NCBI GenBank assembly: GCA_947453155.1
Contig: CANGFE010000014.1
Span: 1-45,154 of the forward strand
Origin: Beijerinckiaceae bacterium
GTDB lineage: Bacteria; Pseudomonadota; Alphaproteobacteria; Rhizobiales; Beijerinckiaceae
DNA: 45,154 nt
Reading direction: 5' to 3'
The position numbers and the translations under genes were made by a program. The notes below the pieces were generated by a model. That model did not search any database. It was not told where the DNA came from and was given only the letters and a program-made list of their open reading frames with translations. Positions 3,812 to 45,154 of this stretch are shown one piece after another; position 1 is the stretch's first letter; the number at the start of each line of letters is the position of its first letter.

Positions 3812-3866
3812 GGGGGCTTTATGGCGCGGGTGGGGGCGCGGGGCAAGGTTTCCAACGCCAACTCAG

Positions 3867-3954
3867 CCGTCATTGCGAGGAGCCGAAGGCGACGCGGCAA
3901 CCCAGAGGCCACACATACGCCCTCTGGTTTGCTTCGCTCCGCTCGCAATGACGG
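3867..3954. repeat. Dispersed palindromic repeat, copy 1
   Basis: An 88-bp element begins CCGTCATTGCGAG and ends CTCGCAATGACGG, so its termini are perfect 13-bp inverted repeats. The interior holds a second inverted pair (CCAGAGG ... CCTCTGG) and can fold into one long hairpin. A second copy with the same ends and related interior lies at 11608-11696. It fits a REP- or MITE-like intergenic repeat. It ends 3 bp from the stop codon of the GntR gene, so it forms that gene's 3' end and may act as a terminator or mRNA stabiliser. Confidence 0.85.
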
Positions 3955-3957
3955 CGG

Positions 3958-4715: not shown

Positions 4716-6113
4716 ATGGCTGATTTTTCCAAACGCTATGATGTGCTGGTGATTGGCGGCGGCAATGCCGCGCTGTGTGCTGCCATCAGCGCTGCGCGCG
4801 AAGGCGCTTCTGTGCTTGTGCTCGAAGCTGCCCCCAAATTCTACCGCGGCGGTAATACGCGCCACACACGCAACATGCGCTGCGCCCATGATGCAGCGAC
4901 CGACACTTTGTCAGGCCCCTATTCGGAAGAAGAATTTTTCGACGATCTGCTGCGCGTCACCGGTGGCAACACCAATGAAGACCTCGCGCGCATGATGATC
5001 CATGAATCGAAAGACATGCTCGACTGGATTGTGCAGCAGGGTGTGCGCTTCCAGCCCTCACTAGGTGGCACCTTGTCACTCGGTCGCACCAATTCCTTCT
5101 TTTTGGGTGGTGGGCGCGCCATGTTGAATGCGCTCTATCTCACCGCCGAAGATCTGGGCGTTGCCATTGCCTATGAAGCGGAAGTCGTCGGCCTTGATGT
5201 TGAAAACGGCATGTTTCTTGGCGCGAAAGTGAAGCGCCCTGAGGGCGAGGCCTATGTGCGTGCAGGCGCTCTTGTTACAGCCTCTGGTGGTTTTGAAGCG
5301 AATAAGGAATGGCTGGAAGAAAGCTGGGGACCAGCCGCGAAAAACTTCCTTATTCGCGGCACGCGGTTCAATCGCGGCACGGTTTTGAAAATGCTTGGCG
5401 CGGCTGGTGTCGATCAAATTGGCGACCCAACCCAATGTCACGCGGTCGCCATTGATGCGCGAGCACCCGAATATGATGGCGGCATTATCACGCGCCTTGA
5501 TTGCGTGGTGTTTGGCATTGTCGTGAACAAAAATTGCGAGCGTTTTTACGATGAGGGCGAGGATGTCTGGCCCAAGCGCTATGCCATTTGGGGTCGCTTG
5601 GTCGCAGGCCAGCCGGACCAGATCGCTTACATCATCTTCGATGCCTCATCGCTCGAACTCTTCATGCCCTCCTGCTTCCCGCCGATCAAAGCCGAGAGCA
5701 TCCGCGAACTCGCAGGCAAGCTGGACCTTGATGCTGATGCGCTCGAAAAGACGATGTGCGAATTCAACGCTGCGGTGAAACCCGGCCATTTCGATCATAC
5801 CCAGCTTGATGATTGCCGCACGCAGGGGCTGGCGATTGAAAAGACCCATTGGGCGCGCAAAATCGAAAAGGCGCCCTTCTATGCCTATCCGGTGCGGCCG
5901 GGCATTACCTTCACTTATCTGGGCGTGCGCGTGAACCATCAATCGCGCATGATGATGGCGGATGGCAAACCCTCCGCCAATATGTTTGCAGCTGGCGAAA
6001 TCATGGCCGGCAATGTTTTGGGCAAAGGCTATGCCGCAGGAATCGGCATGACCATCGGCAGCGTTTTCGGACGCATCGCGGGACGGGAGGCGGCCACCAA
6101 TGCACGCAACTAA
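4716..6113 (+). CDS. tcuA: FAD-dependent tricarballylate dehydrogenase
   Basis: TcuA oxidises tricarballylate to cis-aconitate, using bound FAD. The 465-residue protein starts with a Rossmann dinucleotide motif (VLVIGGGNAALCAAISAA, residues 10-27) and the following acidic strand end LVLEAAP. It then has the succinate-dehydrogenase/fumarate-reductase-like fold with PGITFTYLGVRV and the C-terminal FAD motif FAAGEIMAGNVLGKGYAAG. The GNTRHTRNMR block is characteristic of this family within the fumarate reductase flavoproteins. It overlaps tcuB by 14 bp. No TcuC-type transporter is adjacent, so uptake must come from elsewhere. The substrate assignment rests on family resemblance plus the TcuB partner; a related tricarboxylic acid is possible. 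Confidence 0.88.
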   Translation: MADFSKRYDVLVIGGGNAALCAAISAAREGASVLVLEAAPKFYRGGNTRHTRNMRCAHDAATDTLSGPYSEEEFFDDLLRVTGGNTNEDLARMMIHESKDMLDWIVQQGVRFQPSLGGTLSLGRTNSFFLGGGRAMLNALYLTAEDLGVAIAYEAEVVGLDVENGMFLGAKVKRPEGEAYVRAGALVTASGGFEANKEWLEESWGPAAKNFLIRGTRFNRGTVLKMLGAAGVDQIGDPTQCHAVAIDARAPEYDGGIITRLDCVVFGIVVNKNCERFYDEGEDVWPKRYAIWGRLVAGQPDQIAYIIFDASSLELFMPSCFPPIKAESIRELAGKLDLDADALEKTMCEFNAAVKPGHFDHTQLDDCRTQGLAIEKTHWARKIEKAPFYAYPVRPGITFTYLGVRVNHQSRMMMADGKPSANMFAAGEIMAGNVLGKGYAAGIGMTIGSVFGRIAGREAATNARN

Positions 6114-11607: not shown

Positions 11608-11696
11608 CCGTCATTGCGAGGAGCCGAAGCCGACGTGGCAATGCAGAATGCCACACGTGTCACCTCTGGATTACTTCGCTTTGCTCGCAATGACGG
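11608..11696. repeat. Dispersed palindromic repeat, copy 2
   Basis: An 89-bp element with the same terminal 13-bp inverted repeats (CCGTCATTGCGAG / CTCGCAATGACGG) as the copy at 3867-3954. It shares the following GAGCCGAAG and a central CACCTCTGGATTACTTCGCT block with a few differences. It sits between the convergent glycosylase and smpB genes, 6 bp after the first and 13 bp before the second, so its hairpin may serve as a shared bidirectional terminator. Confidence 0.85.
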
Positions 11697-16280: not shown

Positions 16281-16347
16281 GGGGGCCAAAAGCTTGCCAA
16301 TCCCGCCCGCCTCGGGCATAGAAACGCCCGACCCCCTAGGGGTCTGC

Positions 16348-16437
16348 GGAGACGTGGCCGAGAGGCTGAAGGCAACGGTTTGCTAAATCGTCATAGGGGA
16401 AACTCTATCGTGGGTTCGAATCCCACCGTCTCCGCCA
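16348..16437 (+). tRNA. tRNA-Ser (anticodon GCT)
   Basis: The sequence folds as a class II tRNA. The acceptor stem is GGAGACG with CGTCTCC, then discriminator G and encoded CCA at 16435-16437. The D-arm is TGGCCGAGAGGCTGAAGGCA, the anticodon loop TTTGCTAAA reads AGC/AGT serine codons, a long variable arm (CATAGGGGAAACTCTATC) is typical of serine tRNAs, and the T-loop is GGTTCGAATCC. The last 14 bases are duplicated at 23245-23258, marking it as the integration target of the adjacent element. The tRNA remains intact. Confidence 0.98.
16424..16437 (+). other. attL core, 3' end of tRNA-Ser
   Basis: CACCGTCTCCGCCA at the 3' end of tRNA-Ser is repeated in the same orientation at 23245-23258. The flanking bases differ on both sides, so the shared core is exactly 14 bp. 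Confidence 0.9.
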
Positions 16438-16492
16438 TTATTCCTATAATTTGCTTTAAAAATCAGATACTTACGAACTAGGTTATCGTTCG

Positions 16493-16511
16493 TTCCCACG
16501 TTCATTCCCAC
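16493..16511. promoter_or_regulatory. Left arm-type integrase sites
   Basis: Two copies of TTCCCAC, at 16493-16499 and 16505-16511, are spaced start-to-start by 12 bp. The same motif with the same 12-bp spacing recurs near the right end (23106-23124). Paired short repeats at both ends of an element are what arm-type binding sites of tyrosine integrases look like. The identification is an inference from position and repetition. Confidence 0.7.
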
Positions 16512-16603
16512 TTATCGCTTTACGTAGGCTCGGCTAGCGAAAGCCCCACCCGGCCGCCTTACGGGGGGCATCAACTAAAAGCCTCCCTGCCCTTGACCGC
16601 CCC

Positions 16604-17095
16604 TTAATAGCTAGAACAGTTCACATACATTCCAGTCTTATAGCATCGAGTCTGCACTGGCATTGGTGGCGGGGGAGCCGAGTAGGCAGGCCGAGCCGCA
16701 GCCATAGCTGCTGCCGTTGCGTTAAGTGAAGCGGCCGTAGCGTTTAACGCTGCAGCTTGCGCGGCCGCTTGCTGTCTTTCAGATTCATCACCAACAGCTT
16801 TTGCGCGATAATAATATTCAGCGATTAAAAATTGCCCCTGCTCGGTCGTGATTTCATTCCGCGCGATCCTGCTATTGGTCAATTCTATAAAAGCCACCAA
16901 TGCTTTTTCTGCCTGGGTAAAAGAAGGGTAGGAGGGATGATGCGAAAAACAACGCGAGTCCTCAATAAGCTTTTCAGAGGTACAAGCCACCACAGCAGAC
17001 TGATAGAAAGATGTCCCAACGGATTGGCTAGTTTGGCTGCAAGCGCCAACCAAAAAAATAGAACCTAAAAAGAGCAATTTATTAGGCTTGATCAC
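16604..17095 (-). CDS. Lipoprotein of unknown function, cargo A
   Basis: The 163-residue product begins with a lipoprotein signal sequence (KLLFLGSIFLVGAC; lipobox VGAC with Cys at about 19), so it should be lipid-anchored in the envelope. A helical region follows (KALVAFIELTNSRIARNEIT), then an alanine-rich stretch (AAAQAAALNATAASLNATAA), a proline run and the tail PMPVQTRCYKTGMYVNCSSY. The start is a GTG at 17095 with GGGGAG about 8 bases upstream. The tail and overall plan match the neighbouring lipoprotein at 17187-17684, so the two are paralogues. Function unknown; a role in superinfection exclusion or surface change is possible for envelope proteins carried by satellites. Confidence 0.8.
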   Translation of the reverse strand: MIKPNKLLFLGSIFLVGACSQTSQSVGTSFYQSAVVACTSEKLIEDSRCFSHHPSYPSFTQAEKALVAFIELTNSRIARNEITTEQGQFLIAEYYYRAKAVGDESERQQAAAQAAALNATAASLNATAAAMAAARPAYSAPPPPMPVQTRCYKTGMYVNCSSY

Positions 17096-17186
17096 TTAAG
17101 GCTCTCCCCGGTTTCTACCGCAAATAAAAACATGTCCAGCCTTTTTCCCTAATAGTTCGGGCCCATCGTCTTTACATCAAATAGCC

Positions 17187-17684
17187 CTAAAAGCTCGTGC
17201 AATTAACGTAAATACCTGTCCGATGACAGCGCGTCTGAACCGGCATCGGAGGAGGCGAAGGAGGAGGTGTATAGACCGTTGACGGGATATAAATTTGAGG
17301 CGGCACATATATCGGCGCCACTGACATCGCAGTTGCCGCACCCATCGCACCCCTAGATGCTATTTCATTTTTCTTTTGAGCGTATTCGTAATTTGCTTCG
17401 ATTACTGAAATTTCGTCTTTCTCAATTTTATTGGCAAGTATCGCTGCATAAGAATATTTTTCCTGATCGATAGCCGACAATTTATGGAAAGCTTTGTGCC
17501 TAACGACACAACGAATTTCTCTTATATGAGCTTTTTTAGATTCCTCTGTAAACCAAATGTCTTTCGTCTCGTCACAATCAGATTTAATTTCTTGAACCAA
17601 AAGCTGATTTGCACTCATGCAGCCTGACGTTGCAAAGCATAAGAATGTGATGACCACTAAATCTCTGGGTAGATATTTGCGCAA
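17187..17684 (-). CDS. Lipoprotein of unknown function, cargo B
   Basis: A 165-residue lipoprotein. The signal sequence RDLVVITFLCFATSGC ends in a lipobox (TSGC). The mature part has charged helices (ANKIEKDEISVIEANYEYAQ), a proline-rich segment and the tail PMPVQTRCHRTGIYVNCTSF, nearly the same as in cargo A. The open frame reaches an ATG at 17729, but TTG at 17684 is chosen: AGGGG lies 7 bases before it and it gives a normal-length signal peptide, whereas the ATG adds 15 residues ahead of it. Codon use is more A+T-rich than in the core genes. Function unknown. Confidence 0.75.
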   Translation of the reverse strand: MRKYLPRDLVVITFLCFATSGCMSANQLLVQEIKSDCDETKDIWFTEESKKAHIREIRCVVRHKAFHKLSAIDQEKYSYAAILANKIEKDEISVIEANYEYAQKKNEIASRGAMGAATAMSVAPIYVPPQIYIPSTVYTPPPSPPPMPVQTRCHRTGIYVNCTSF

Positions 17685-17987
17685 TTTAATACCCCTAATA
17701 AGCGGCAAAACTTGAAGGCGTAGCGCCACAATGAACGAAAAAAACGATTTTTATCAATAAAATTAGCTAAACCTCCGCATTGCACTAGCTTAAAAAAAGA
17801 AGAAAAAATTTCCTATAAATCTTAATAGGAAACCATTCTTAATTTATTTCAACTCAACCCAGCGGCTGAAAACGCCGAAATGCATAAGCAAACTAACCAA
17901 CAGACAAATACCTTAGCTATTTTCCAGATCAGCTCAAAAGCGGCTAATGTTTTTGCTCAAAATAACTTTTTGATGGAACCACTGCAG

Positions 17988-18512
17988 ATGAGAAAGATCT
18001 TTCAGTTCACGTTTATCTTGGGTCTTTTCTTGGGTGCAAAAATGAGTGCAATAGCAGAGCCCTCAGAGGTTACGCGTTTCTTGATGAACACACCAGTAAG
18101 TTTGATGACACGAGGATTAGAAAATATTAAAATTGATATCCAGTCTTTGCAGTTGCCACCGGGATACGTAACAATTGCAGGATACGATTGGGATACTGAC
18201 AGGTTTCAAATCACGTTAGCATGCGTTGGATCCGCGTGTGATGATAACGCAAGTGAACAAACCTGTGCCCTTCGTCTAAATCAGATCCGAACAAAAGCGG
18301 GGATTACTGACGGAAAAATTTCGTCTTGGTTACCCCACTCATTATTTGCCGAAAACTTTAAACAAAATGGACATCAAAGCCCTCAACAACCGAACAATTG
18401 GGGGACAAAAATTGATCAAAAAATAGCTTTGAAAGTAATACTGGGCTGGGAGCAGCCAATCATTTGCGAGGCACCACTAATCGGATCAGGATATTCTTTA
18501 AGCCGTCAATAG
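17988..18512 (+). CDS. Secreted protein of unknown function, cargo C
   Basis: A 174-residue product starting MRKIFQFTFILGLFLGAKMS, a typical signal peptide with probable cleavage after AIA. The mature part has four cysteines (ACVGSAC, EQTC, PIICEAP) that could form two disulfides, consistent with a periplasmic or secreted protein. The frame is open from an ATG at 17880, but the signal sequence fits the ATG at 17988; the ribosome site is weak in either case. It is divergent from the two lipoprotein genes and transcribed towards the replication gene. No family recognised. Its A+T-rich composition suggests a foreign origin. Confidence 0.7.
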   Translation: MRKIFQFTFILGLFLGAKMSAIAEPSEVTRFLMNTPVSLMTRGLENIKIDIQSLQLPPGYVTIAGYDWDTDRFQITLACVGSACDDNASEQTCALRLNQIRTKAGITDGKISSWLPHSLFAENFKQNGHQSPQQPNNWGTKIDQKIALKVILGWEQPIICEAPLIGSGYSLSRQ

Positions 18513-18550
18513 GTTTGAAGTGTGTAGCCAGAGAATAAGTCATCGACAGA

Positions 18551-18623
18551 TAGTGTGAGGACGACGGGGGCGGTCTCTATAGAGAGACCGTCACCGTCGT
18601 TCCCTCCGGGAAACCTCACACTA
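18551..18623. other. Three-way-junction palindrome, possible origin or RNA
   Basis: Nested perfect inverted repeats fill this 73-bp stretch. The outer stem is TAGTGTGAGG (18551-18560) with CCTCACACTA (18614-18623). Inside is an arm made of ACGACGG (18561-18567) with CCGTCGT (18594-18600), capped beyond a GGG/TCA bulge by CGGTCTCT (18571-18578) with AGAGACCG (18583-18590) and loop ATAG. A second small hairpin, TTCCC-TCC-GGGAA, spans 18600-18612, sharing its first base with the preceding arm. It lies between the convergent cargo C and replication genes, with no T-run, so it is not an ordinary terminator. A replication origin, cruciform protein site or structured RNA are the options. Confidence 0.75.
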
Positions 18624-18711
18624 GGCTTAAGTCGCTTTTGACGGCACGAAAGAGATGAGATGGCAGAGAAGAACCGTCGCCGAGTGTCTACCGCCGCCGT
18701 CCTATAAGGCC

Positions 18712-20823
18712 TCACCGCACCCGCCATATCAGCCCCCCGTTGATAACGAGCACCCCACGGCCTCTGAGCGAGTTAAGGGCATCTCGAAACTGACGGGGTA
18801 CGCTTTTGCCCGTATCTGCAACCCGCCCAATTGCAAATGACTTGAAGTTTTGCAGGTCAACACATCGCTCAGGCTTATCAGGGAAACCTGTCCCCAGAGG
18901 GGTATACTTATCAGGAGCATCTGCTTGGAAGGTCTCGTAAGCATCAAGCACAGCCCTCTCATTGTGGCCCAAAGGTTTGGACTTAGATTTCGCCGGCTCC
19001 AGATCAGTAGGGACAACTACACAGGTCGTGACCGCATCCCCATCTTCGTCAAAACCGAGAACAACCTGCTCTAACTCGAAGGCAAACTCAGAGCCGTCGC
19101 CGCCCTCTTTCATTTTCGTCAACTTTGCAATTCGACCCGGCAGCTCCTTATTTGGTCGAGTAATCTCAATCTCCGTATCAATCGCACCAAGGAGACTGGA
19201 GTGTCCCCGCGCCCCACGGCTCTGATCTTTGCCAGAATGATGCACAACTACAACTAGGCAATCGAGCTCCTTCGAGAGGTAGTCCATTGCAGATATGAAG
19301 GCCGTCATTTCGGTGCTGGAGTTTTCGTCTTTTCCGCTCATCGCGCGACTAAAGGTATCAACGACCACGACAGCTACCTGCCCCTGCTCCCTTCGAATGC
19401 TGGCAACTAGCTTCTTGGCATCGCAGTCTGCTGCAGAACGCACCTCTTGCTCATGCTTAGGGGCAGAGGACAGGTTCATGCTTTCTGGATAGGAAACAAA
19501 ATAACCAAGGTCGCCTAGACGATTTTTTAGAGCAGCTATTCGGTTAACCGCGCCAAACCCACCCTCAAGAAAGCAATATGCAACGCCACCTGTTGCAGCC
19601 TTTCGGTCACGCCAATCTTTGATGTGCGGAGCTGAGATGTGGGCCACGAGATCAGCCACGAAGAAGGACTTCCCTGATCCCGGAGCACCGTAAATGATAG
19701 CTAGCCCTTTTTGAGGGAGGATACCCTTGATCAACCAAAGCTGTGAAAGGTTGGGCTTTGCCTCGTTCGCTGGGTAACCTTTGAAGTATTGCGATCTCAC
19801 TTCAGCAACATGTGGCCGCTCTGCTGATAAAGACTCGCTGCTCGAGATTGGATGAGCATTGGCATGGTGACTAATCTTTGTGTCCCATTGCCCCATGGCA
19901 TAGTTCCATTTCTCCTTGAACATGGAGATACCACGCCCTTCACGCTCAAGCAGGTCACCCTTGGAACTAGATGTATCAATCAAACGGCTCTTCACATTTC
20001 GTTCGTACGTATCATAGGCCGTGATCATCATTGCATTTGAGTGCCCCGCCCCAGGCTTGAACGGACATTCCCTATATTCAGAGACAATAGCTGCCCAAAT
20101 GAGTCTGGTGGCATACCCTTCACGTCCGTTGATGATATTGCCGAAAGCATCAACTGTCTGTTCGGAAGGAATGCTGACATCTTGTACGAGGTTAACGCCT
20201 CGACCAGAGGCCGGCCCCGCGAGAGCATCAATCTCATCGCACAACCACAAGGGTGCATTTGCGATCCCCATGTTCCAAGGTTCATGGCCACTCTTCCACG
20301 CATAGGATCGCCCGCTCTCATGCATGGAGGGAGGCAGCATCGCAAAGCCGCCCTGCCCTCGAATATCTATACCGAGAGAGGTCTTGCATGTAGGTGATAA
20401 CCAACCAATTGGGGCTCGGAATAGAAGCTGAATACCTCCACCGCCGGTTTGCTGCTCAACGGTTTCAAGCTCACCAGCCCAAACCTGACGCTCACGAATC
20501 TCAAGCAACCAGGACTGTGCAAGTTGGTTCTTGTGAAGATCGACATCGATTACGAATATGGATCCAGAACACGCCCCACAAATCATCCCCATGCTGGAGC
20601 GGTTGGAATGTTGACCACCCCCTGAGTACCAGCTCTCAAAGGTGGCGTCAGAGACCAGTTGATGTTCTAGCCCCCGCCAACTTGAAAGCGCTGGGCGTTT
20701 CCACGAATGACTGTTCTCTTGTGGCGTCATCGCAGGAACGACTTGAATTCCGAGGTTGCGATACATACGCGCCCAGTCTGAAGGACTGGCCACTCCAGAA
20801 TTAAAATCAGTGATGTGTGACAT
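18712..20823 (-). CDS. Prim-Pol and RecA-like helicase fusion replication protein
   Basis: The 703-residue protein has an N-terminal bifunctional primase/polymerase (Prim-Pol) domain. Its metal-binding motif is VIDVDLH (Asp93, Asp95), followed by TGGGGIQLLF (126-135) and GIDIRGQGGFAMLPPS (151-166). A RecA/RepA-like ATPase follows, with Walker A YGAPGSGKSF at 378-387, Walker B VAVVVVDTFSRA with Asp489, and VVVVHHSGKDQSRGARG. The C-terminal 100 residues may be a winged-helix region. Such fusions initiate replication of satellites and plasmids. It is the likely replication protein of the element and ends 88 bp from the three-way palindrome, which may be its origin. Confidence 0.9.
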   Translation of the reverse strand: MSHITDFNSGVASPSDWARMYRNLGIQVVPAMTPQENSHSWKRPALSSWRGLEHQLVSDATFESWYSGGGQHSNRSSMGMICGACSGSIFVIDVDLHKNQLAQSWLLEIRERQVWAGELETVEQQTGGGGIQLLFRAPIGWLSPTCKTSLGIDIRGQGGFAMLPPSMHESGRSYAWKSGHEPWNMGIANAPLWLCDEIDALAGPASGRGVNLVQDVSIPSEQTVDAFGNIINGREGYATRLIWAAIVSEYRECPFKPGAGHSNAMMITAYDTYERNVKSRLIDTSSSKGDLLEREGRGISMFKEKWNYAMGQWDTKISHHANAHPISSSESLSAERPHVAEVRSQYFKGYPANEAKPNLSQLWLIKGILPQKGLAIIYGAPGSGKSFFVADLVAHISAPHIKDWRDRKAATGGVAYCFLEGGFGAVNRIAALKNRLGDLGYFVSYPESMNLSSAPKHEQEVRSAADCDAKKLVASIRREQGQVAVVVVDTFSRAMSGKDENSSTEMTAFISAMDYLSKELDCLVVVVHHSGKDQSRGARGHSSLLGAIDTEIEITRPNKELPGRIAKLTKMKEGGDGSEFAFELEQVVLGFDEDGDAVTTCVVVPTDLEPAKSKSKPLGHNERAVLDAYETFQADAPDKYTPLGTGFPDKPERCVDLQNFKSFAIGRVADTGKSVPRQFRDALNSLRGRGVLVINGGLIWRVR

Positions 20824-20931
20824 GGTTGATATCCATGCCGCCGTTGCCAGAAATGACTGATAATGTTAAAATTGCATCTCTTCCAAAGTTGCAACTTTCC
20901 TATCGAGCCGTCCTGCATGGGCGGCTCGTTT

Positions 20932-21186
20932 TTATTTCATTTGAGATGAAGAAAAGCTTGTACCCAAGCTGTTCCGGTGAGGATCCTGACGCAATTCAAT
21001 AAGCGGTAAGGTCTCTAGAAAATCCCGAACAGATTTAGCATCAACAAGCGTTCGAGAACCAATTTTTAGCATCCGGACCTGACCTGCAGCAGCCAACCTA
21101 TAAAGAGCAGATCGTGACAGGCCAAAGATTCCTGGTGCCTTAGGCAGAGGGACCATTTCTGGACTAATTGTAGATGTATTTTGCAT
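20932..21186 (-). CDS. AlpA-like helix-turn-helix regulator
   Basis: An 84-residue protein with a MerR/AlpA-type helix-turn-helix: PGIFGLSRSALYRLAAAGQV then KIGSRTLVDAKSVRDFLETL. In this family the RTLVD-like segment packs against the recognition helix. Proteins of this type in P4-like elements activate integrase or act as excisionases. The frame opens at 21240, but ATG 21186 is preferred since GGAG lies 9 bases before it and the N-terminus is then of usual length. It lies between the integrase side and the replication gene on the same strand, with 108 bp before the latter. Confidence 0.85.
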   Translation of the reverse strand: MQNTSTISPEMVPLPKAPGIFGLSRSALYRLAAAGQVRMLKIGSRTLVDAKSVRDFLETLPLIELRQDPHRNSLGTSFSSSQMK

Positions 21187-21286
21187 TATAACCGTCTCCA
21201 AGCCGAAGCAGAGCGCGTCGGGACGGTTGCTTATTTGCACTTGTTCAGAGCTCTATGCAAAGGCCCTGATGAACAATATTACACTA

Positions 21287-21781
21287 TTAAAGTGCACCCC
21301 TTTTTTTGCTGTCCACCAGATATCCCTCCGCTTCTAAAACAGCCCTACGCGCTATTGCCTGGGTGACTTCGAACGCTTTAGCTAGATTGCAGATCATGTC
21401 GACTCTGCTTTTGTACTTAAGTTTAGTAAGAGCATTCAAATAAACCGCATCAAACGCTGCTATTTTCAATGCTACGTTTTCTGGTTTCCCAGCCGACCGT
21501 TGGTATGGATATCTAATTAATTGCGCGAGCTCCGCGTGCTCATACGGTTTCAAATGACGTGCATGAAAAACAAGAACTGAAGCTGCTTTGTAGAAATCTT
21601 CAGGAGTGGGGTCTTTAGTGATTGTCTCAAGCGCAGCCTCAATTTCAAATGTCCGCACCCATGAAAGGCCTTTGCTACCGTCATCAGGGAGCCTTACTGG
21701 GGAAATCAATGTTTCTGTTTTCTCGTCAATAACTGAGGGAGAAAACTCGTAAAAATTCAACGGCTTTTTTTTCGTCCCCAT
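21287..21781 (-). CDS. Hypothetical element protein
   Basis: A 164-residue, charged, mostly helical soluble protein of unrecognised family. The ATG at 21781 is preceded by GAGGAGAGGAAG, an excellent ribosome site, and starts 17 bp after the integrase stop, so it is probably translated from the same message. Its C-terminal part (MICNLAKAFEVTQAIARRAV) could form a helix-turn-helix, hinting at DNA binding, but this is weak. Position between integrase and AlpA suggests a role in control of integration or replication. A longer in-frame start at 21829 overlaps the integrase and is less likely. Confidence 0.72.
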   Translation of the reverse strand: MGTKKKPLNFYEFSPSVIDEKTETLISPVRLPDDGSKGLSWVRTFEIEAALETITKDPTPEDFYKAASVLVFHARHLKPYEHAELAQLIRYPYQRSAGKPENVALKIAAFDAVYLNALTKLKYKSRVDMICNLAKAFEVTQAIARRAVLEAEGYLVDSKKRGAL

Positions 21782-21798
21782 CTTCCTCTCCTCTATAA

Positions 21799-23106
21799 TT
21801 AAGAAGCGAAAACACAAGCGGCCGCCCAAGCTTCCATCATAGCCCTACGCTCCTCCACAAGGGGATCTCTTGCATAGGCTGCTCTTACCCTGTTGGCGTC
21901 GGTATGGGCTAAGGCCAATTCACTGAGGTGGTCAGCCCAACCATTTGTAAGGCTCCAAGCTTTGAAACTTGCTCGAAAGCCATGGGGAACGATGGCATTG
22001 CCTAGCTCATCCCGCCAACGTGGTAACTCCCCGGCAGCGAGCCCGTCGTAAGACATACCTCTCACCAATTGTGAAAGCGCCATATCAGACAGCGGGCGCT
22101 CAGCCTTACGGCTAGGAAATACTAAACTGCCAGCCCCAGAAGCGAGCGGCTCTAATTGTGCTAGGACATTTAGCCCTACTTTTGAGAGCGGAACAAAGTG
22201 AGCCTTCCCAGCTTTCATTCTGGCTGACGGAATAGACCAAACACCTTTTGCCAGATCAATCTCAGACCACCGCATATGACGAACTTCACCTGAACGAGCA
22301 GCCGTCAGAATAGCGAACTGAAGAGCAAGAGCGGCAATGCCCGCTTTCTCTCGCAGCGCCGCCATAAAGGCAGGTAATTGCTGAAACGGGAGTGAGGGGT
22401 GGTTATCAGCCAGTCCCCGGCTTCGTCTGACAGCTGCCTTTAATTTGCTAGGCGATCCCAAAACCTCGGAAAGATGACCGCGCCATGAGGCTGGGTTTGG
22501 AGCTCTAGGCCGCAATCCGGTAGCAGAAGCATAATTTAGGACCGCCTCAATACGTCCTCTAATTCTAGAAGCAGTTTCAGGGATCGTTGTCCAAATAGGC
22601 TGCAAGACGGCCAATACATCAGCCGTATCAACTTCCGAGACAGCCTTGTCACTCACTACCGGAAAGACATGCTTCTCAAGGCTGCTCTGCCATTGATGTC
22701 CATGCTTGTCGTTTTTCCATTCCGGAGCTTTGGCCTCGTAATAGGCCTCAGCTACTGACTTGAAGCTATCGCTAGACTTGCGAGCTAGAGCCGCCTTAGC
22801 GGCTGCCCGCTCTGCAATTGGATCGCTACCCTTCTTGGACGCACTCCGGGCCGATTGGGCGGCCATTCGCGCCTCCGCGAGGCTGGTTTGGGGATAGTTG
22901 CCCAAACCCATATCTCGACGCTTCCCAGCGATTGTGGTGCGCAATACCCAAGCGCCAGACCCGGATGCTTGTCCTGGCTTGACCAGCAAATGAAGACCAG
23001 AACCTACACCGATCCTGACTGGCGAAACCTTCGCAACCTTAGAAAGAGAAGTGAGCTTTGCCTTAAGTCCCAGAGCACTCAATTCAGCCATTGCTTGGAT
23101 ATCCAT
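21799..23106 (-). CDS. int: Tyrosine-type integrase, P4 family
   Basis: The 435-residue protein has the P4-integrase plan: an N-terminal DUF4102-like arm-binding domain (LLVKPGQASGSGAWVLRTTI, MGLGNYPQTSLAEARMAA), a core-binding SAM-like domain and the C-terminal catalytic domain. Catalytic residues are visible: Arg271 in TAARSGEVR, Lys near 301, His375 and Arg378 in PHGFRAS, His401 in LAHTD, and Tyr411 in RAAYAR. ATG 23106 is chosen. A GTG at 23124 is in frame, but both overlap the repeated TTCCCAC arm motif, so integrase binding there could repress its own gene. The gene starts 139 bp from attR. It should recombine the tRNA-Ser end with the element's att core. Confidence 0.95.
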   Translation of the reverse strand: MDIQAMAELSALGLKAKLTSLSKVAKVSPVRIGVGSGLHLLVKPGQASGSGAWVLRTTIAGKRRDMGLGNYPQTSLAEARMAAQSARSASKKGSDPIAERAAAKAALARKSSDSFKSVAEAYYEAKAPEWKNDKHGHQWQSSLEKHVFPVVSDKAVSEVDTADVLAVLQPIWTTIPETASRIRGRIEAVLNYASATGLRPRAPNPASWRGHLSEVLGSPSKLKAAVRRSRGLADNHPSLPFQQLPAFMAALREKAGIAALALQFAILTAARSGEVRHMRWSEIDLAKGVWSIPSARMKAGKAHFVPLSKVGLNVLAQLEPLASGAGSLVFPSRKAERPLSDMALSQLVRGMSYDGLAAGELPRWRDELGNAIVPHGFRASFKAWSLTNGWADHLSELALAHTDANRVRAAYARDPLVEERRAMMEAWAAACVFAS

Positions 23107-23137
23107 TCCCACATTTATTCCCACAATTTAGTGGGAA
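23106..23137. promoter_or_regulatory. Right arm-type integrase sites
   Basis: TTCCCAC occurs at 23106-23112 and 23118-23124 (12-bp spacing, as at the left end), followed by an inverted copy GTGGGAA at 23131-23137 and a partial GTGGG at 23140-23144. The cluster overlaps the integrase start. An A+T-rich palindrome, AATAATATTATT (23195-23206), lies between it and attR and could be a bending site. Confidence 0.7.
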
Positions 23138-23244
23138 CAGTGGGCACCAGCAAGAATCACGCGGGGACTATTCAACATCCAAATTATTGTTTTTAATAAT
23201 ATTATTGATCAATGCGAGCCAGTGAGGGACTAGATATCTAGAGA

Positions 23245-23258
23245 CACCGTCTCCGCCA
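23245..23258 (+). other. attR core
   Basis: CACCGTCTCCGCCA is identical to the last 14 bases of tRNA-Ser at 16424-16437 and in the same orientation. It marks the right boundary of the element. Beyond it, G+C-rich chromosomal sequence resumes. Confidence 0.9.
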
Positions 23259-23365
23259 GTTCACCCAACCAATCAAAACGTGCTTGCTCGATCAGGCTGA
23301 ACTTTGGCGCTGCCTTGGGCGCCTAGGAACCATTTGGCGAAAATCTTTTCAGCGTTTCTGATGGA

Positions 23366-23467
23366 TTATCCTACGCGCAGGCTCAAGGGTGGCGGAGAAA
23401 CCGTCGCGCCACCCCCAACAACGACATCAATGCGGATCTTGTCGAGGCGAACAGCCTGCACGGCCAT
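23366..23467 (-). pseudogene. 33-codon ORF with strong ribosome site, gene remnant?
   Basis: Downstream of the Bug receptor gene, AGGAGGAG at 23471-23478 precedes an ATG at 23467 that opens a 33-codon frame (begins MAVQAVRLDKIRIDVVVGGG) ending in TAA. The ribosome site is as good as any in the window, but the peptide is too short for a known family and has a proline-rich end. It may be the N-terminus of a gene that lost its 3' part, or a genuine small protein. The rest of 23259-23365 shows nothing recognisable. It lies just outside the element's right boundary. Confidence 0.4.
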
Positions 23468-23498
23468 CAACTCCTCCTAAAAATCTCGAATCAGAAAA

Positions 23499-24524
23499 TT
23501 ACTTCTTCTCGGCTTCCTGCATGGTCTTGCGCACCATATCGATGGTCTTTTCATCGAAGCGATAGGCGGCATCCAGCGTCTTCATCAGCTCGTCAGGCGA
23601 GATAAGGGACACATTGAGGCCTTGGCGGCTGGCGTCTTCTTGTGTGGCGGCATCAAGCAGTGTGTCGCGAAATGCTTTGCGCAGGGCTGCCAAGCGATCG
23701 GCCGGCACGCCGGGTGGCGCGACAAAGGGGCGGCCCATATCGGCGCGCAGAAGGAAAAATTCCGCCGCTTTGCGTTCGGCTGGTGACAAATCCAGATCAT
23801 TCAGACCCGGCACATCTTTGATGCGCGGATCGGGTGTCAGGCGCCCCTGTACGAGCAGGCGGCGCGTGCCATCTTTGAGGCCCGGCTCACGCAAAGCCGT
23901 ATCATAAGAGATGAATGTGCCATGCGCTTCGCCGCGCTCGACGGCCAGATTCATATCGCGCGAGCCCGGATAGCCCTGTACGATGCGCAATTTCAGATGG
24001 AAGAGATCACGCAACATCACAGGATAGGTGAGACTGTCCGCGCCTGATCCTGTGGCCGCGACAATCAATTCCTTGTTGCGCAATTCGGAGAGTTTTTGTA
24101 CGGGGCCGTCGGTGCGCACGAAAGCGACGATTGTGTCGCGGTCCGGCGAACCAATGTAATTGAACTGGCGTGGATCAAATTGCGCCGCCTTATTGCCAAG
24201 TAAGGGCTCAAAAGGCACGCCGCGATTGATCAGCGCCATCACCGTGCCATCCTTGGGCGCGGTTTTGAAGGCTTGATTGGCAGCGACCAGCGAACCAGCG
24301 CCGGGAACATTTTGCGGCACGACAGTGGGGCTGCCTGGCATGAAGCGATTCATGTGACGGCCAAGCAATCGCGCCCACAGATCATCCGATCCGCCAGCGC
24401 CATAGCCGATCATGATCGTAATGCTCTTGCCCTTGAAATAATCTTCGACCGCATCAGCACGCGCCGCATGGGTTGAGGCGGCCATCACCGCTCCAAACAG
24501 AATAACTTGGGCAAGCTTGCGCAT
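23499..24524 (-). CDS. Bug-family periplasmic solute receptor
   Basis: A 341-residue extracytoplasmic receptor of the Bug (TctC) family, the binding component of tripartite tricarboxylate transporters. It has a signal peptide (AQVILFGAVMAASTHAARA) and then the family pattern: FKGKSITIMIGYGAGGSDDL, VPQNVPGAGSLVAANQAFK, and VAATGSGADSLTYPVMLRDL. No TctA or TctB membrane partners lie nearby, so it is an orphan receptor, as is common in alpha- and betaproteobacteria. It follows the cytochrome c gene by 20 bp in the PQQ-dehydrogenase operon. In methylotrophs the third gene of such operons (mxaJ/xoxJ) is also a periplasmic binding-protein-like accessory; a comparable role here is speculative. Confidence 0.92.
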   Translation of the reverse strand: MRKLAQVILFGAVMAASTHAARADAVEDYFKGKSITIMIGYGAGGSDDLWARLLGRHMNRFMPGSPTVVPQNVPGAGSLVAANQAFKTAPKDGTVMALINRGVPFEPLLGNKAAQFDPRQFNYIGSPDRDTIVAFVRTDGPVQKLSELRNKELIVAATGSGADSLTYPVMLRDLFHLKLRIVQGYPGSRDMNLAVERGEAHGTFISYDTALREPGLKDGTRRLLVQGRLTPDPRIKDVPGLNDLDLSPAERKAAEFFLLRADMGRPFVAPPGVPADRLAALRKAFRDTLLDAATQEDASRQGLNVSLISPDELMKTLDAAYRFDEKTIDMVRKTMQEAEKK

Positions 24525-36963: not shown

Positions 36964-37667
36964 CACATCTGATCGAAATGAAAAATGTCATTGTCGAGCG
37001 TGATGGTGCACGCGTTTTGGATGGCGTGTCGATGCATTTGGAACGTGGTGAGAGATTGGCCGTTATTGGCTCCAATGGCGCCGGCAAAACAACTTTTTTG
37101 CGCGCTCTGATTGGTTTGCAAAAACTGTCAGGTGGCAGCATTGAAGCTTTTGGTCGCACGCGCCAATCGGAAGATGATTTCCGCGAAGTTCGCCTGCGCG
37201 CCGCCTATCTCTTTCAGGATGCGGATGATCAGCTCTTTTGCCCCAGCGTGGTGGAAGATGTGGCTTTTGGTCCGCTCAATCAGGGTTTTTCGGAAGAGGA
37301 AGCCATGGACAAGGCGCGTGCCACTTTGGCGCGGCTTGGCCTCTCGGCGCTTGGGCCGCGCGTGACGCGCAAATTATCGGGCGGCGAAAAGCGGCTTGTG
37401 TGTTTGGCGGCCATTCTTGCGATGGATCCGGATGTTCTGCTCCTCGACGAACCGACCAATTCACTCGACGCGCATCATGTCGAAAAGCTTGTCGAGATTC
37501 TCAACTCGCTTGATGTCGGGATGATTATCGTCTCGCATGACCGTCCCGTGCTCGACCGCTTGGCCAATCGTGCTTTGCTGATGAAGAATGGGCAGCTGGA
37601 GCCTGCCGTCCTGCATCGCCATCCGCATATGCACGAACATGTGCATATTCACACCGATCACGCCTGA
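36960..37667 (+). CDS. nikO: Ni/Co ECF importer ATPase
   Basis: The A component (CbiO family), 235 residues. Complete ATPase motifs: Walker A GSNGAGKTTFLRALIG, Q-loop AYLFQDADDQLF, signature LSGGEKRLVCLAAIL, Walker B VLLLDEPTNSLD and H-loop IIVSHDR. The C-terminus ends in a histidine-rich tail (LHRHPHMHEHVHIHTDHA), which may bind Ni or Co and could sense or buffer the metal. The start ATG at 36960 is coupled to nikQ; an in-frame ATG at 36921 lies inside nikQ and is not needed. Its stop region overlaps the convergent P1B ATPase gene by 10 bp. Confidence 0.95.
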   Translation: MTHLIEMKNVIVERDGARVLDGVSMHLERGERLAVIGSNGAGKTTFLRALIGLQKLSGGSIEAFGRTRQSEDDFREVRLRAAYLFQDADDQLFCPSVVEDVAFGPLNQGFSEEEAMDKARATLARLGLSALGPRVTRKLSGGEKRLVCLAAILAMDPDVLLLDEPTNSLDAHHVEKLVEILNSLDVGMIIVSHDRPVLDRLANRALLMKNGQLEPAVLHRHPHMHEHVHIHTDHA

Positions 37668-39517
37668 GCGGGCGGCGCCAAAGCGCGCAAAGCGTTCAAG
37701 ATGACGGCGACATCAATCGCCTCTTGCAGCAAGGCGCCTTCAATCGGCGAGAGAAATCCAAACGCCGCCAAAACCATGGCTGCCCCCGACAAGGCCATGC
37801 CGGCAACAATGCTTTGCCAGGCAATCGAGCGCGTGCGCTTTGCGATCGCAAAAGCATCTGCGACACGACCAATCTGATCGACCAGCACGACAATATCGGC
37901 TGCTTGCGAAGACGCGCTCGCCCCGCGCGCGCCCATGGCCATGCCGACATGGGCAATGGCGAGAGCTGGCGCATCATTGATGCCATCGCCCACCATCAAG
38001 ACCTGCGCGCGCTCTTGCTCAGCGCTCACGACCTCGAGTTTTTCAGCCGGCGTGCAATCGGCCAGAACGAGATCAAGATCGAGCGTTGAGCCAATCATGG
38101 CCGCCGCGTCCGCGCGATCTCCCGTCAGCATGAGAATTCGCTGCACGCCATTTTGGCGCAGCCGCTGCACCGCAAGCGGCGCATCGGCGCGCAATTCATC
38201 ACCCATCAGCAAAGCGCCAAGGCCCTTGCCATCCGCGGAAACAAAAACCGCCAAAGCGGCACGCTCTGTGGCTTTTTGCAAAACATCTTGCACCCAAGGT
38301 GCCAAAGCTTCATCGCCAAAGACAAATTGATGCGACCCAATGCGAAGGCGCTGGCCTTCAACCACACCATCCAAGCCTGACCCATGCGCTTCATGCGCAT
38401 TCGAGGGCATGGGCAGATCGAGCCCCTCGCGCTTCGCGGCTTCAATGATGGAGCCTGCAATCACATGGTGTGAGGCCTGCTCGAGGGCCGCCGCAAGCCG
38501 CAAGACTTGATGCGCGGAAACATCAGGTGCTGTTTCAATCGACAAAAGGCGAGCACCGCCAACTGTCAAGGTTCCGGTCTTGTCGAAAATGATTGTGCGT
38601 ATATTGGCAAGTGCTTCGAGTGGGCCACCGCCCTTTACCAAAATACCCAAGCGCGCCGCACGCGACACACCAGCAATAAAAGCCACGGGTGCCGCAAGAA
38701 TAAGCGGGCATGGCGTCGCTGAAACCAAAACCGCCAGAGCGCGCACGACATCGCCCGAGAAAAACCAAGCGCCGCCTGCAAGCAAGAGCGAGGCAGGCAA
38801 GAGCAAAAGCGCCATGCGATCGGCCAAGCGCAGAAAGGGCGCGCGCGCGGTTTGCGCCGCGCTGACCAGACGCAAAATCCCAGCATAAGTGCTCTCGCCG
38901 GCACTGGCAGAGACGCGCAGATGATAGGTCTCGCCAGCATTGACGCAACCACTGCGCACAGCATGGCCTGAGAAATGTGTCACGGGCATAGGCTCGCCGG
39001 TGAGCGCAGATTCATCCAAAATGGCATTATCGCTGGCCACAAAACCATCGGCGGGAAGAATTTCACCAGAGCGGACAACGAGAACATCATCCACGGCAAT
39101 CTGGTCGACTGGAATATCTTCAATATGCGCATTTATAAGTCGATGTGCGATGCGCGGCGCACGATCAATCAGTGCCGTCAAATCACGCTCCGCGCGCGAC
39201 ACCGCATAATCTTCGAGCACCGCCCCGCCCGCATACATAATGGCGACGACATTCGCCGCCAGCGCTTCGCCAATGGCAAGCGCCGCGCTCATGGATATAA
39301 AAGCAATTGTGTCGAGACCGGCGCGGCCAGCTTTGAAGCCATGCCAGATGGCCAGCACAAGCGCCGCAATCACGGGCAGCGTGCCCGCAGTCCAAACAGC
39401 GCGCGCAAAACTGCCGCCAACTGCCTGCGTCACGAGACCAAAAATGAGGGATAGGATCGCGCCAGCAATCAGCAGGCGATTGAAAAGGCGTTTGGTGCTG
39501 GCGGACCCGTTCTCCAT
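37658..39517 (-). CDS. P1B-type metal ATPase with TPC membrane motif
   Basis: A 619-residue heavy-metal exporting P-type ATPase. The actuator TGEP (173-176), phosphorylation DKTGTLT (312-318), LTGDRADAAAM and hinge MVGDGINDAPALAIA are all intact. There is no N-terminal heavy-metal-binding CxxC domain. The metal-site motif in the sixth membrane span is ATPCPLI (Thr268-Pro-Cys270) rather than CPC or SPC, and the C-terminal span has LLQEAIDVAVILNA (Gln598-Glu599). TPC with QE is the mark I recall for the P1B-5 group, whose studied member exports Ni/Fe; the C-terminal hemerythrin domain found there is absent. Facing the nik importer, it may set Ni/Co levels. Cd/Zn export by a divergent P1B-2 is the alternative. 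Confidence 0.88.
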   Translation of the reverse strand: MENGSASTKRLFNRLLIAGAILSLIFGLVTQAVGGSFARAVWTAGTLPVIAALVLAIWHGFKAGRAGLDTIAFISMSAALAIGEALAANVVAIMYAGGAVLEDYAVSRAERDLTALIDRAPRIAHRLINAHIEDIPVDQIAVDDVLVVRSGEILPADGFVASDNAILDESALTGEPMPVTHFSGHAVRSGCVNAGETYHLRVSASAGESTYAGILRLVSAAQTARAPFLRLADRMALLLLPASLLLAGGAWFFSGDVVRALAVLVSATPCPLILAAPVAFIAGVSRAARLGILVKGGGPLEALANIRTIIFDKTGTLTVGGARLLSIETAPDVSAHQVLRLAAALEQASHHVIAGSIIEAAKREGLDLPMPSNAHEAHGSGLDGVVEGQRLRIGSHQFVFGDEALAPWVQDVLQKATERAALAVFVSADGKGLGALLMGDELRADAPLAVQRLRQNGVQRILMLTGDRADAAAMIGSTLDLDLVLADCTPAEKLEVVSAEQERAQVLMVGDGINDAPALAIAHVGMAMGARGASASSQAADIVVLVDQIGRVADAFAIAKRTRSIAWQSIVAGMALSGAAMVLAAFGFLSPIEGALLQEAIDVAVILNALRALAPPAQA

Positions 39518-39581
39518 CCGCTGATCTTAGCAGAGAGAGACGGGTCCGCCTTGCGCCAAAGCAAACCTTCAGCAGGGCTGG

Positions 39582-40166
39582 TTATTTTTTGCGATAGACC
39601 AGCAGAGTTTCATACATGCCGACTTTCTCGACGCTGCTTTCCTGTTCCCATTGCTTGATCACCGTGGACTCGGCCGTGTCGAAGGCGAAAGACTTGGTGT
39701 AGAAAAGAATATAGCCGCCAGAGCGCGTCTTGTGCGTGAGCATGTCGGTCACTTCGCGGTCCGTCAGTGCGCCGTAGAGGTCATTGCGCTCATTGCGGAA
39801 TTCGCAAAGATGGAACAGCGACACGACATCGAATTGCGGCAATAGACGCTCTTCGAGCTGATAAATGTCGCCGAAAAACGCCTTATAGGTCTTTTCGACT
39901 TCCGGGCGATCAATGGCGAGTTTGACGAATGTGTCATATTCGCCGGGGCTTGCCGTAATGCCGTAAACGCAATTGTTGCTGCGATTTTCAGCCTGACGAA
40001 TGCCAACAATGTGGTGGCTGCCCGTGCCGAAATGGAAGATTGAGGCGTCGGTCAGGCCCTTCTTCTCAATCCAGTCACAGAAATGCACGTCACAAGGACA
40101 GGTCTCAACCTGCAGATCCCACACGGCATCCCAAAAATGCAATTTACGATTCACATGCTCGTTCAT
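39582..40166 (-). CDS. Rossmann-like protein, possible SAM methyltransferase
   Basis: A 194-residue soluble protein with no family I can name. ASIFHFGTGSHHIVGI (about residues 41-56) resembles motif I of class I methyltransferases, and FDVVSLFHLCEF (about 113-124) and GGYILFYTKSF (about 149-159) resemble later strands of that fold. The helix after motif I is poorly conserved for SAM binding, so activity is uncertain. Cysteines cluster near the N-terminus (TCPCDVHFCDW), which could bind metal. Its ATG overlaps the TGA of the degenerate ABC transporter gene (ATGA), so the two products are co-expressed and probably act together. Confidence 0.7.
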   Translation of the reverse strand: MNEHVNRKLHFWDAVWDLQVETCPCDVHFCDWIEKKGLTDASIFHFGTGSHHIVGIRQAENRSNNCVYGITASPGEYDTFVKLAIDRPEVEKTYKAFFGDIYQLEERLLPQFDVVSLFHLCEFRNERNDLYGALTDREVTDMLTHKTRSGGYILFYTKSFAFDTAESTVIKQWEQESSVEKVGMYETLLVYRKK

Positions 40167-44685: not shown

Positions 44686-44797
44686 CTCGAATGAATGCAG
44701 ATTGAACTGCGAAACATCCTGCTGCTGACACGACCACCACAGGGGCGATCGTGTCGTGCAGCTATTCCTGACCCTGTCTAGAGACAGGAACCAAGAA

Positions 44798-45115
44798 TTA
44801 GGCAGCAGCCGGAGCGGCCTTAGCCTTGCGCGCAACGCGCTTCTTGGCAGGCTTACGAACAGCCTTCTTGGCAGTCTTCTTGACGGCCTTCTTGGCAGTC
44901 TTCTTGACGGCCTTCTTGGCAGTCTTCTTGACGGCCTTCTTAGCAGTCTTCTTGACGGCCTTCTTGGCAGTCTTCTTGACGGCCTTCTTAGCAGTCTTCT
45001 TCACTGCCTTCTTGGCGGTCTTGCGAGCGCCCTTCTTGGCAGCGCCCTTACGGGCAGTCTTCTTGGCCGCGGTCTTCTTCGCAGCCGGCTTACGCTTCGT
45101 TGTTGCCTTAGCCAT
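44798..45115 (-). CDS. Histone H1-like lysine/alanine-rich DNA-binding protein
   Basis: A 105-residue, very basic protein made almost only of Lys, Ala, Thr, Val and Arg. The middle is a tandem array with seven TAKKAV units at a strict 8-residue period (unit KKTAKKAV), between MAKATTKRKPAAKKTAAKK at the N-terminus and an Arg-rich end (RKPAKKRVARKAKAAPAAA). It resembles the lysine-rich C-terminal domain of eukaryotic H1 and the H1-like proteins of many proteobacteria, which bind and compact DNA. The DNA of the repeats is nearly identical (24-bp units), so the copy number can change by slippage. AGGGGA precedes the ATG. Confidence 0.9.
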   Translation of the reverse strand: MAKATTKRKPAAKKTAAKKTARKGAAKKGARKTAKKAVKKTAKKAVKKTAKKAVKKTAKKAVKKTAKKAVKKTAKKAVKKTAKKAVRKPAKKRVARKAKAAPAAA

Positions 45116-45154
45116 CTGAGGTCCCCTCTGATTTTGTCCGCCGGCGAAAGAAAG

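Follow-up and report, generated by a model that had tools for sequence, protein, structure and literature searches.

A branched palindrome beside a Prim-Pol/AAA_25 gene as the probable replication-origin core of an integrative element

The integrative element and its replication gene

We analysed a 45,154-nucleotide stretch of a Beijerinckiaceae bacterium contig (CANGFE010000014.1; hereafter, the window), which contains a 6.8-kb integrative element at a tRNA-Ser gene. The element carries an integrase gene, a gene for a small HTH protein and a gene whose product has Prim-Pol and AAA_25 domains, and its GC content is lower than that of the host flanks (48.5% versus 58%). The tRNA-Ser(GCT) gene (16348–16437, + strand), identified by a tRNA match, is the integration target, and its last 14 bp (16424–16437) constitute attL. 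The same 14 bp of the tRNA 3′ end (CACCGTCTCCGCCA) recur at 23245–23258, where they form attR and the right end of the element.

The tyrosine integrase (21799–23124, − strand) matches the Pfam families Phage_int_M, Arm-DNA-bind_3 and Phage_integrase. All five copies of TTCCCAC in the 45 kb fall into two clusters, at 16493–16511 and 23106–23137, near attL and attR, and four of the five are arranged in pairs 12 bp apart. The total is not above chance, the clustering being the striking part, and judging by their sequence and placement the clusters look like candidate integrase arm-binding sites. The small HTH protein (20932–21240, − strand) matches HTH_17 with an E value of 4.8e-5, below the Pfam cut-off; we infer that it is an excisionase or a regulator, and related small HTH genes are found at 5 of 22 further loci (L133–L154). 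A terminator-like hairpin with a T-run on the + strand lies at 20904–20928, upstream of the start of the Prim-Pol gene. For the four other ORFs of the element that were tested, neither Pfam nor PHROGs nor NCBIfam gave a match at an E value of 0.001. The neighbouring ORFs 16604–17095 and 17187–17729, which have no family match, share 24% identity over about 120 residues.

The replication gene (18712–20823, − strand) encodes a protein of 703 residues in which Pfam and PHROGs matches delineate a Prim-Pol domain and an AAA_25 (RepA-like) helicase domain, followed by a C-terminal region. Sections of PMC5862659 describe mobile-element primases that are fused to helicases of the RepA type and to winged-helix domains. 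The C-terminal region here is possibly a winged helix as well, its structure model being of low confidence (pLDDT 52).

Downstream of the replication gene lies a palindrome (18551–18623) that folds into a three-way junction and is the proposed replication-origin core of the element. It is situated between the ends of two convergent ORFs, a 210-residue ORF ending at 18512 (+ strand) and the replication gene, whose stop codon is at 18712. The distance from the end of the replication gene to the palindrome is 88 bp, just as the preliminary description of this DNA had reported, and the palindrome's centre is 133 bp away.

Fold and stability of the palindrome

When 18551–18623 is folded, a 10-bp outer stem (18551–18560/18614–18623) opens into an arm of 7 bp (18561–18567/18594–18600), which is followed by one unpaired base on each side and by an inner arm (18569–18578/18583–18592) composed of eight perfect base pairs, a G-U pair and a G-C pair. 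The inner arm ends in a loop of 4 nt. The third branch is a side hairpin of 4 bp (18601–18604/18608–18611) with a 3-nt loop. The preliminary description had thus drawn the outer stem correctly and had recognised the bulged 7+8-bp arm, the inner part of which is in fact longer by the G-U and G-C pairs. The side hairpin that it gave as 5 bp exists, although it attains this length only by borrowing a T from the junction.

The RNA-fold minimum free energy (MFE) of the palindrome is −48.3 kcal/mol on the + strand and −42.8 kcal/mol on the − strand (z scores of −7.5 and −6.5, respectively), and none of 200 shuffled sequences matched it on either strand. The corresponding DNA-fold energies are −30.2 and −26.7, with z scores of −8.4 and −7.1. 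In a scan of the 45 kb with 73-nt windows and a step of 3, the palindrome had the lowest + strand energy, tied with a site at 39490, and it ranked sixth in the − strand list. Together, these values establish that the folded structure described earlier is real. The palindrome at 39480–39590 is equally stable, at about −47 kcal/mol on either strand; it has no directly adjoining T-run and lies near the start of ORF 37658–39517 (− strand).

The base composition agrees in part with the earlier picture of a G+C-rich structure in A+T-rich surroundings. The palindrome is 59% GC and the 38 bp to its left are 42% GC, but the 88 bp to its right reach 57%. In the 60-bp windows that begin at 18541, 18571 and 18601 the AT content is 42–48%, so that no AT-rich stretch is present at the palindrome.

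A palindrome that is very stable on both strands and is placed between two convergent ORF ends could serve these genes, which end at 18512 (+) and 18712 (−), as a two-way transcription terminator or as an mRNA 3′ stabiliser. We treat this as the main rival to an origin function and regard it as unlikely. An intrinsic terminator is a hairpin followed by a T-run, whereas the palindrome has no T-run on either side, in agreement with the lack of a U-run remarked on before, and none of the seven terminator-like sites called in 16300–23500 coincides with it. Evidence from related loci that bears on this explanation is given below.

Searches for similar sequences and RNA families

The perfect 10-bp terminal inverted repeat, which begins with TA and ends with TA, is what one would expect of a MITE- or REP-like mobile palindrome that had inserted here. 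The palindrome, however, matches only itself in its own genome assembly (83.6% complete), where it is present in one copy, and phages and plasmids gave only short weak matches. The best match listed among 396 other genomes of the order is local and scores 41 bits over 41 query bases; at E values up to 1, matches occur in at least 217 of 397 genomes of the order, its own included. An origin as a mobile insert is accordingly very improbable. Two copies of a different palindromic repeat, with the ends (GC)CGTCATTGCGAG and CTCGCAATGACGG(C), are found at 3866–3955 and 11608–11696, and this is perhaps a dispersed host repeat.

The preliminary description had also offered a structured RNA, and the strong RNA fold is what one would expect of a riboswitch, ribozyme or small RNA. 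This proposal found no support, and we give it hardly any credence. At the gathering score, Rfam detected only the tRNA in the window and nothing at the palindrome; at E values up to 5, the palindrome matched three miRNA models only, at chance level (best E value 0.16); and no Rfam match at the gathering score was found near the palindromes of 13 related loci. Furthermore, the folding energy is low on both strands, and the iteron sequences of the relatives described below turn over. In these relatives, the pairing of the arms is largely a consequence of their being short iterons repeated in inverted orientation.

A pattern search with GTGTGAGG-N40-65-CCTCACAC matched 63 viral stretches, many of which are repeats of a few sequences; their inner folds differ by eye and these candidates were set aside. 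Exact peptides retrieved no close Prim-Pol relatives from viral or genome contigs. As these searches yielded no sequence homologue of the palindrome, we compared loci by place, beside related helicase genes.

Palindromes and iterons at the 3′ ends of related helicase genes

Five sibling loci from the same genus (L135–L139) carry an AAA_25 gene and an integrase gene, the integrase being 38–43% identical to that of the element over the best segment. A large palindrome, iterons or both are present at the end of the AAA_25 gene in four of them (L135, L136, L137 and L139, but not L138). In L136 and L137 the palindrome is within the last part of the helicase reading frame, and in L135 iterons and a half-palindrome are found at the contig end. 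At its start, this contig (G005:C63) breaks off inside the CACCCCTTTAGGG half-palindrome, as if the assembly had broken at the core. Relatives from phages and plasmids, of which 22 (L133, L134, L155–L164 and L209–L218) were hand-picked from 690 phage and 24 plasmid records, often display short element-specific inverted repeats around a centre such as AACCCTTTAGGGTT, CACCCCCTTTAGGGGGTG or AACCCTATAGGGTT. The Escherichia coli locus L159 and the Klebsiella locus L158 have iterons without a core palindrome; sibling L138, Caulobacter phage L163 and Vibrio phage L164 have neither; and L215 and L216 have no core and no clear iteron.

To count these features, we defined the core as a CT-W2/3-AG palindrome and scored its uninterrupted stem pairs. 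A core of at least four pairs is present in 34 of 70 windows 3′ of the helicase genes and in 1 of 66 windows 5′ of them (four 5′ windows being too short or absent); for at least five pairs the counts are 28/70 and 0/66. When loci are grouped by clusters of 3′ sequence, the core is found in 30/65 (at least four pairs) and 24/65 (at least five pairs). An earlier, slightly different core count, with duplicates included, gave 22/70 versus 0/70; nine of 79 loci, in which the AAA domain was unaligned, had been dropped for that earlier count. Iterated 7-mers, that is, 7-mers present at least five times in a 3′ window, a count reached by no more than 1 of 60 shuffles, occur in 28 of 60 distinct 3′ windows and in none of 58 windows on the 5′ side, two of which were too short or absent. 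Ten re-fetched duplicates were dropped for the 7-mer and core counts. Since the core definition was taken from the first loci and then imposed on the others, its CT and AG are constant by construction.

The preliminary description had named as decisive against it the loss of the structure in related elements that keep the replication gene. Such loss is seen in part: a core of at least four pairs is missing from 36 of the 70 helicase loci, several of which have iterons only, and is present in the other 34.

Changes in the pairing partners can be followed in the palindromes of the relatives, and it is from these, rather than from the stems of the window copy, that the evidence for pairing with change comes. 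In 20 hand-picked cores, a selection-biased set whose rows were chosen for pairing, all six pairs outside the CT/AG are changed on both sides. This number of pairs is not above that in shuffled alignments, 131 of 500 of which reach 6, whereas the number of cells with changes on both sides (37 versus 11.6) and the covariation score (0.593 versus 0.158) exceed the shuffled values. Neither the 10-bp outer stem nor the side hairpin was noticed in those relatives that were folded.

These loci also bear on the possibility of a terminator. The next gene is convergent in some relatives too but is co-directional in others, and many relatives hold iteron arrays at the corresponding place.

A second set of loci from viral contigs

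With the criterion fixed beforehand, we searched viral contigs for further loci, most of which are related to one phage of the first set. A roseophage initiator retrieved 80 loci, a Polaromonas plasmid protein 1 and a protein of Rhizobium phage 16-3 a further 8, and a fourth query protein retrieved no locus from these contigs. Of these 89 loci, 4 were removed because their flanks were short and 41 as near-duplicates, which left 44 distinct loci.

A core of at least four pairs is found in 30 of the 44 3′ windows, as compared to a mean of 1.3 and a maximum of 4 in shuffles, and one of at least five pairs in 21 of these 44 windows of phage relatives (shuffle mean 0.2). Intragenic control windows contain no core (0/44). 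The other ORFs of these loci have a core in 1 of 149 3′ windows, a rarity that counts against a terminator.

Among the loci retrieved with the roseophage query, 28 of 37 have a core. An iteron is present within 40 nt on both sides of 25 of these 28 cores, and the two are inverted relative to each other in all 25. They are located 12–14 nt before the core centre and, in 23 of the 25, 7–9 nt after it. The iteron sequences themselves vary widely, with 20 distinct 6-mers that include register shifts of one motif. A 7-mer with at least four copies is present in 39 of the 44 loci, a count made without a control.

Iteron type and the initiator C-terminus in roseophages

Four roseophages with near-identical helicase domains differ in their iterons, which are CTACAAA in CRP-811 and CRP-823 and GTATAAA in CRP-831 and CRP-821. 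Over approximately the last 100 aligned residues, the initiators are 96–100% identical within an iteron type and 70–72% identical between types. The N-terminal part of the initiator, unlike the iteron type, groups CRP-823 with CRP-821. This distribution fits recognition of the iterons by the C-terminal part of the initiator, although the C-terminus and the iterons could also be co-inherited from close linkage alone. A text search of the main text of the roseophage paper (PMC12629253) found no mention of a repeat, palindrome, iteron or replication origin.

The window copy against the family pattern

The counterpart of the relatives' CTWWAG core in the window is the central perfect palindrome CTCTATAGAG (18575–18584), identified by the family comparison. 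It scores five stem pairs and is located at stop+129. The 45 kb contain five CT..AG palindromes with a stem of at least seven pairs, the window copy among them, and the core alone is therefore weak evidence.

On the gene strand, the centre reads GACGG-TCTCTCTATAGAGACCGCCC-CCGTC. The gene-proximal GACGG (18588–18592, − strand) starts 13 nt from the centre and forms an inverted pair with a far-side partner at 18563–18567 (+ strand), 12–13 nt from the centre. The near-side spacing conforms to that of the relatives, whereas the far side is beyond the 7–9 nt of 23/25 relatives, a misfit that slightly lowers our confidence in an origin. One more copy is in the arm (18594–18598, − strand), and the seven copies in total span 18503–18701, the others being at 18503–18507 (−), 18640–18644 (+), 18674–18678 (−) and 18697–18701 (−).

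The 230 bp that follow the Prim-Pol gene thus contain seven copies of GACGG. No 5-mer was as frequent in 300 shuffles, and the count is the highest for any 5-mer in 660 windows across the element, but GACGG is a short motif that was found by inspection, and different pentamers equal or exceed its density (7 or more) at other places in the 45 kb. Dense CAAGA pentamers, up to 14 in 230 bp, are found at 44691–45150. Iterons of the 7-mer kind are absent from the window copy, where the highest count of a 7-mer is 2, as compared to at least 5 in an array. With no 7-mer array and with GACGG as its only, pentameric, repeat, the window copy is iteron-poor and stem-rich. Measured against the proposed dyad origins of AAA_25 relatives, it has a core with a stem of at least five pairs and lacks five or more identical 7-mers.

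Interpretation as a probable replication origin

The comparison of loci establishes, at the level of sequence, (i) a place 3′ of the helicase gene that recurs, (ii) a recurrent core, (iii) an inverted-iteron geometry, (iv) arms that turn over while their pairing is kept and (v), in four roseophages, joint inheritance of iteron type and initiator C-terminus. Because many related helicase genes carry iterons, a CTWWAG palindrome or both at the matching place, with both arms changing together, the origin function that the preliminary description had offered is the reading that gained support. We consider it likely that the palindrome is the core of the element's replication origin and is recognised by the Prim-Pol/AAA_25 initiator encoded next door.

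Several characterised systems are informative here. Portions of PMC4234260 and PMC3869888 describe a 100-bp stem-loop in the Sulfolobus plasmid pRN1 that lies 54 bp beyond the Prim-Pol gene orf904, is essential for replication and keeps its structure while its sequence drifts; a similar stem-loop is noted there in phage BIP-1, on the 3′ side of its replication gene. The palindrome resembles both in that a large stem-loop closely follows the gene of a Prim-Pol/helicase initiator, after 88 bp in our case. An initiator of the pRN1 type combines Prim-Pol, SF3 helicase and winged helix, of which the Prim-Pol domain is present here. In these portions, however, the helicase of pRN1 and BIP-1 is of the SF3 type, whereas here it is AAA_25, with no SF3 domain reported; the pRN1 loop measures 58 nt, as opposed to 3 and 4 nt on a branched stem; and no iteron origin is seen in pRN1 or BIP-1, whereas the relatives of our element have inverted iterons around a CTWWAG core.

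According to extracts from PMC6092414, the origins of PICIs are 3′ of the initiator gene (pri-rep) and consist of two element-specific iteron sets around an AT-rich region, one such origin having been tested in E. coli. Like PICI and SaPI origins in these extracts, the palindrome is immediately 3′ of the initiator gene. The PICI centre is AT-rich between iteron sets, whereas here it is palindromic with GC-rich arms. The window copy has, in place of two iteron sets, a few short repeats (GACGG ×7), and of its genes only int, the HTH_17-like gene and Prim-Pol/AAA_25 are recognised, unlike the regulator, interference and packaging genes of PICIs. The loci L159 and L158 combine a satellite-like gene content with PICI-like 3′ iterons and no core palindrome.

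As its helicase type, loop and iteron set differ, the palindrome is a full member of neither the pRN1 nor the PICI family. By analogy with what these sources report, it most likely works like the pRN1 and PICI origins, and it is best read as a stem-rich, iteron-poor variant of the design in which the origin is 3′ of the replication gene.

The remaining option in the preliminary description was a single-strand initiation site for the primase. On this view, the Prim-Pol would read the hairpin as single-stranded DNA, as RepB′ does at ssiA/ssiB of RSF1010, and the true double-strand origin would be elsewhere. The Prim-Pol is encoded next door, both strands fold, and priming at hairpins has a precedent: in RSF1010, as outlined in parts of PMC4538821 and PMC4234260, a RepA-type helicase and an archaeo-eukaryotic primase act at hairpins near iterons. 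Its oriV with ssiA/ssiB resembles the present locus in having a RepA-type helicase, a primase and a hairpin, but in these parts RSF1010 relies on three proteins that are not fused and on two sites for the primase, as opposed to a single fusion protein and a single dyad at the centre here. The relatives' palindromes, moreover, are embedded in inverted iterons that resemble duplex binding sites, and no other repeat cluster stands out within the element. We find a single-strand site rather improbable and proceed with the replication-origin core.

We propose the following sequence of events for such an origin. Once Int has excised the element, the initiator would bind, through its C-terminal domain, the short GACGG repeats inverted around the centre, and the AAA_25 helicase would assemble on the dyad. 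Supercoiling or the helicase would then extrude or melt the palindrome at its CTATAG centre, which would yield similar hairpins on both strands. The Prim-Pol domain would prime on the exposed strand or strands, and a host polymerase would take over, possibly in both directions.

With more reserve, as a possibility somewhat short of probable, we suggest that a (C)CTWWAG(G) palindrome with hypervariable inverted iterons defines a widespread class of AAA_25 origins in phages, satellites, plasmids and integrative elements, the iterons being exchanged as a cassette with the initiator C-terminal domain. The window element would belong to this class, its iterons having shrunk and been superseded by a branched cruciform, and would link the iteron origins of PICIs with the pure stem-loop origins of the pRN1 type. 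The open-access literature searched yielded no account of an iteron origin with a CTWWAG core; PMC7145576 concerns a RepA_N protein, which belongs to another family.

If such a class exists, the origins of many phage, satellite and plasmid replicons could be read from the sequence just beyond the helicase gene, and iteron origins and stem-loop origins, so far treated apart, would be connected. The recurrence of the core amid changing iterons makes the function of this core a clear question. A natural experiment on how initiator and origin change specificity in concert would be available in the roseophages. The CTWWAG palindrome within changing inverted iterons beyond many AAA_25 genes deserves a dedicated study. 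At 4925–5000 of locus L154, which has a related integrase and no match to the Prim-Pol/AAA query, there is a large palindrome with inverted CCGACA repeats, and origins of a similar kind may accompany other helicase types.
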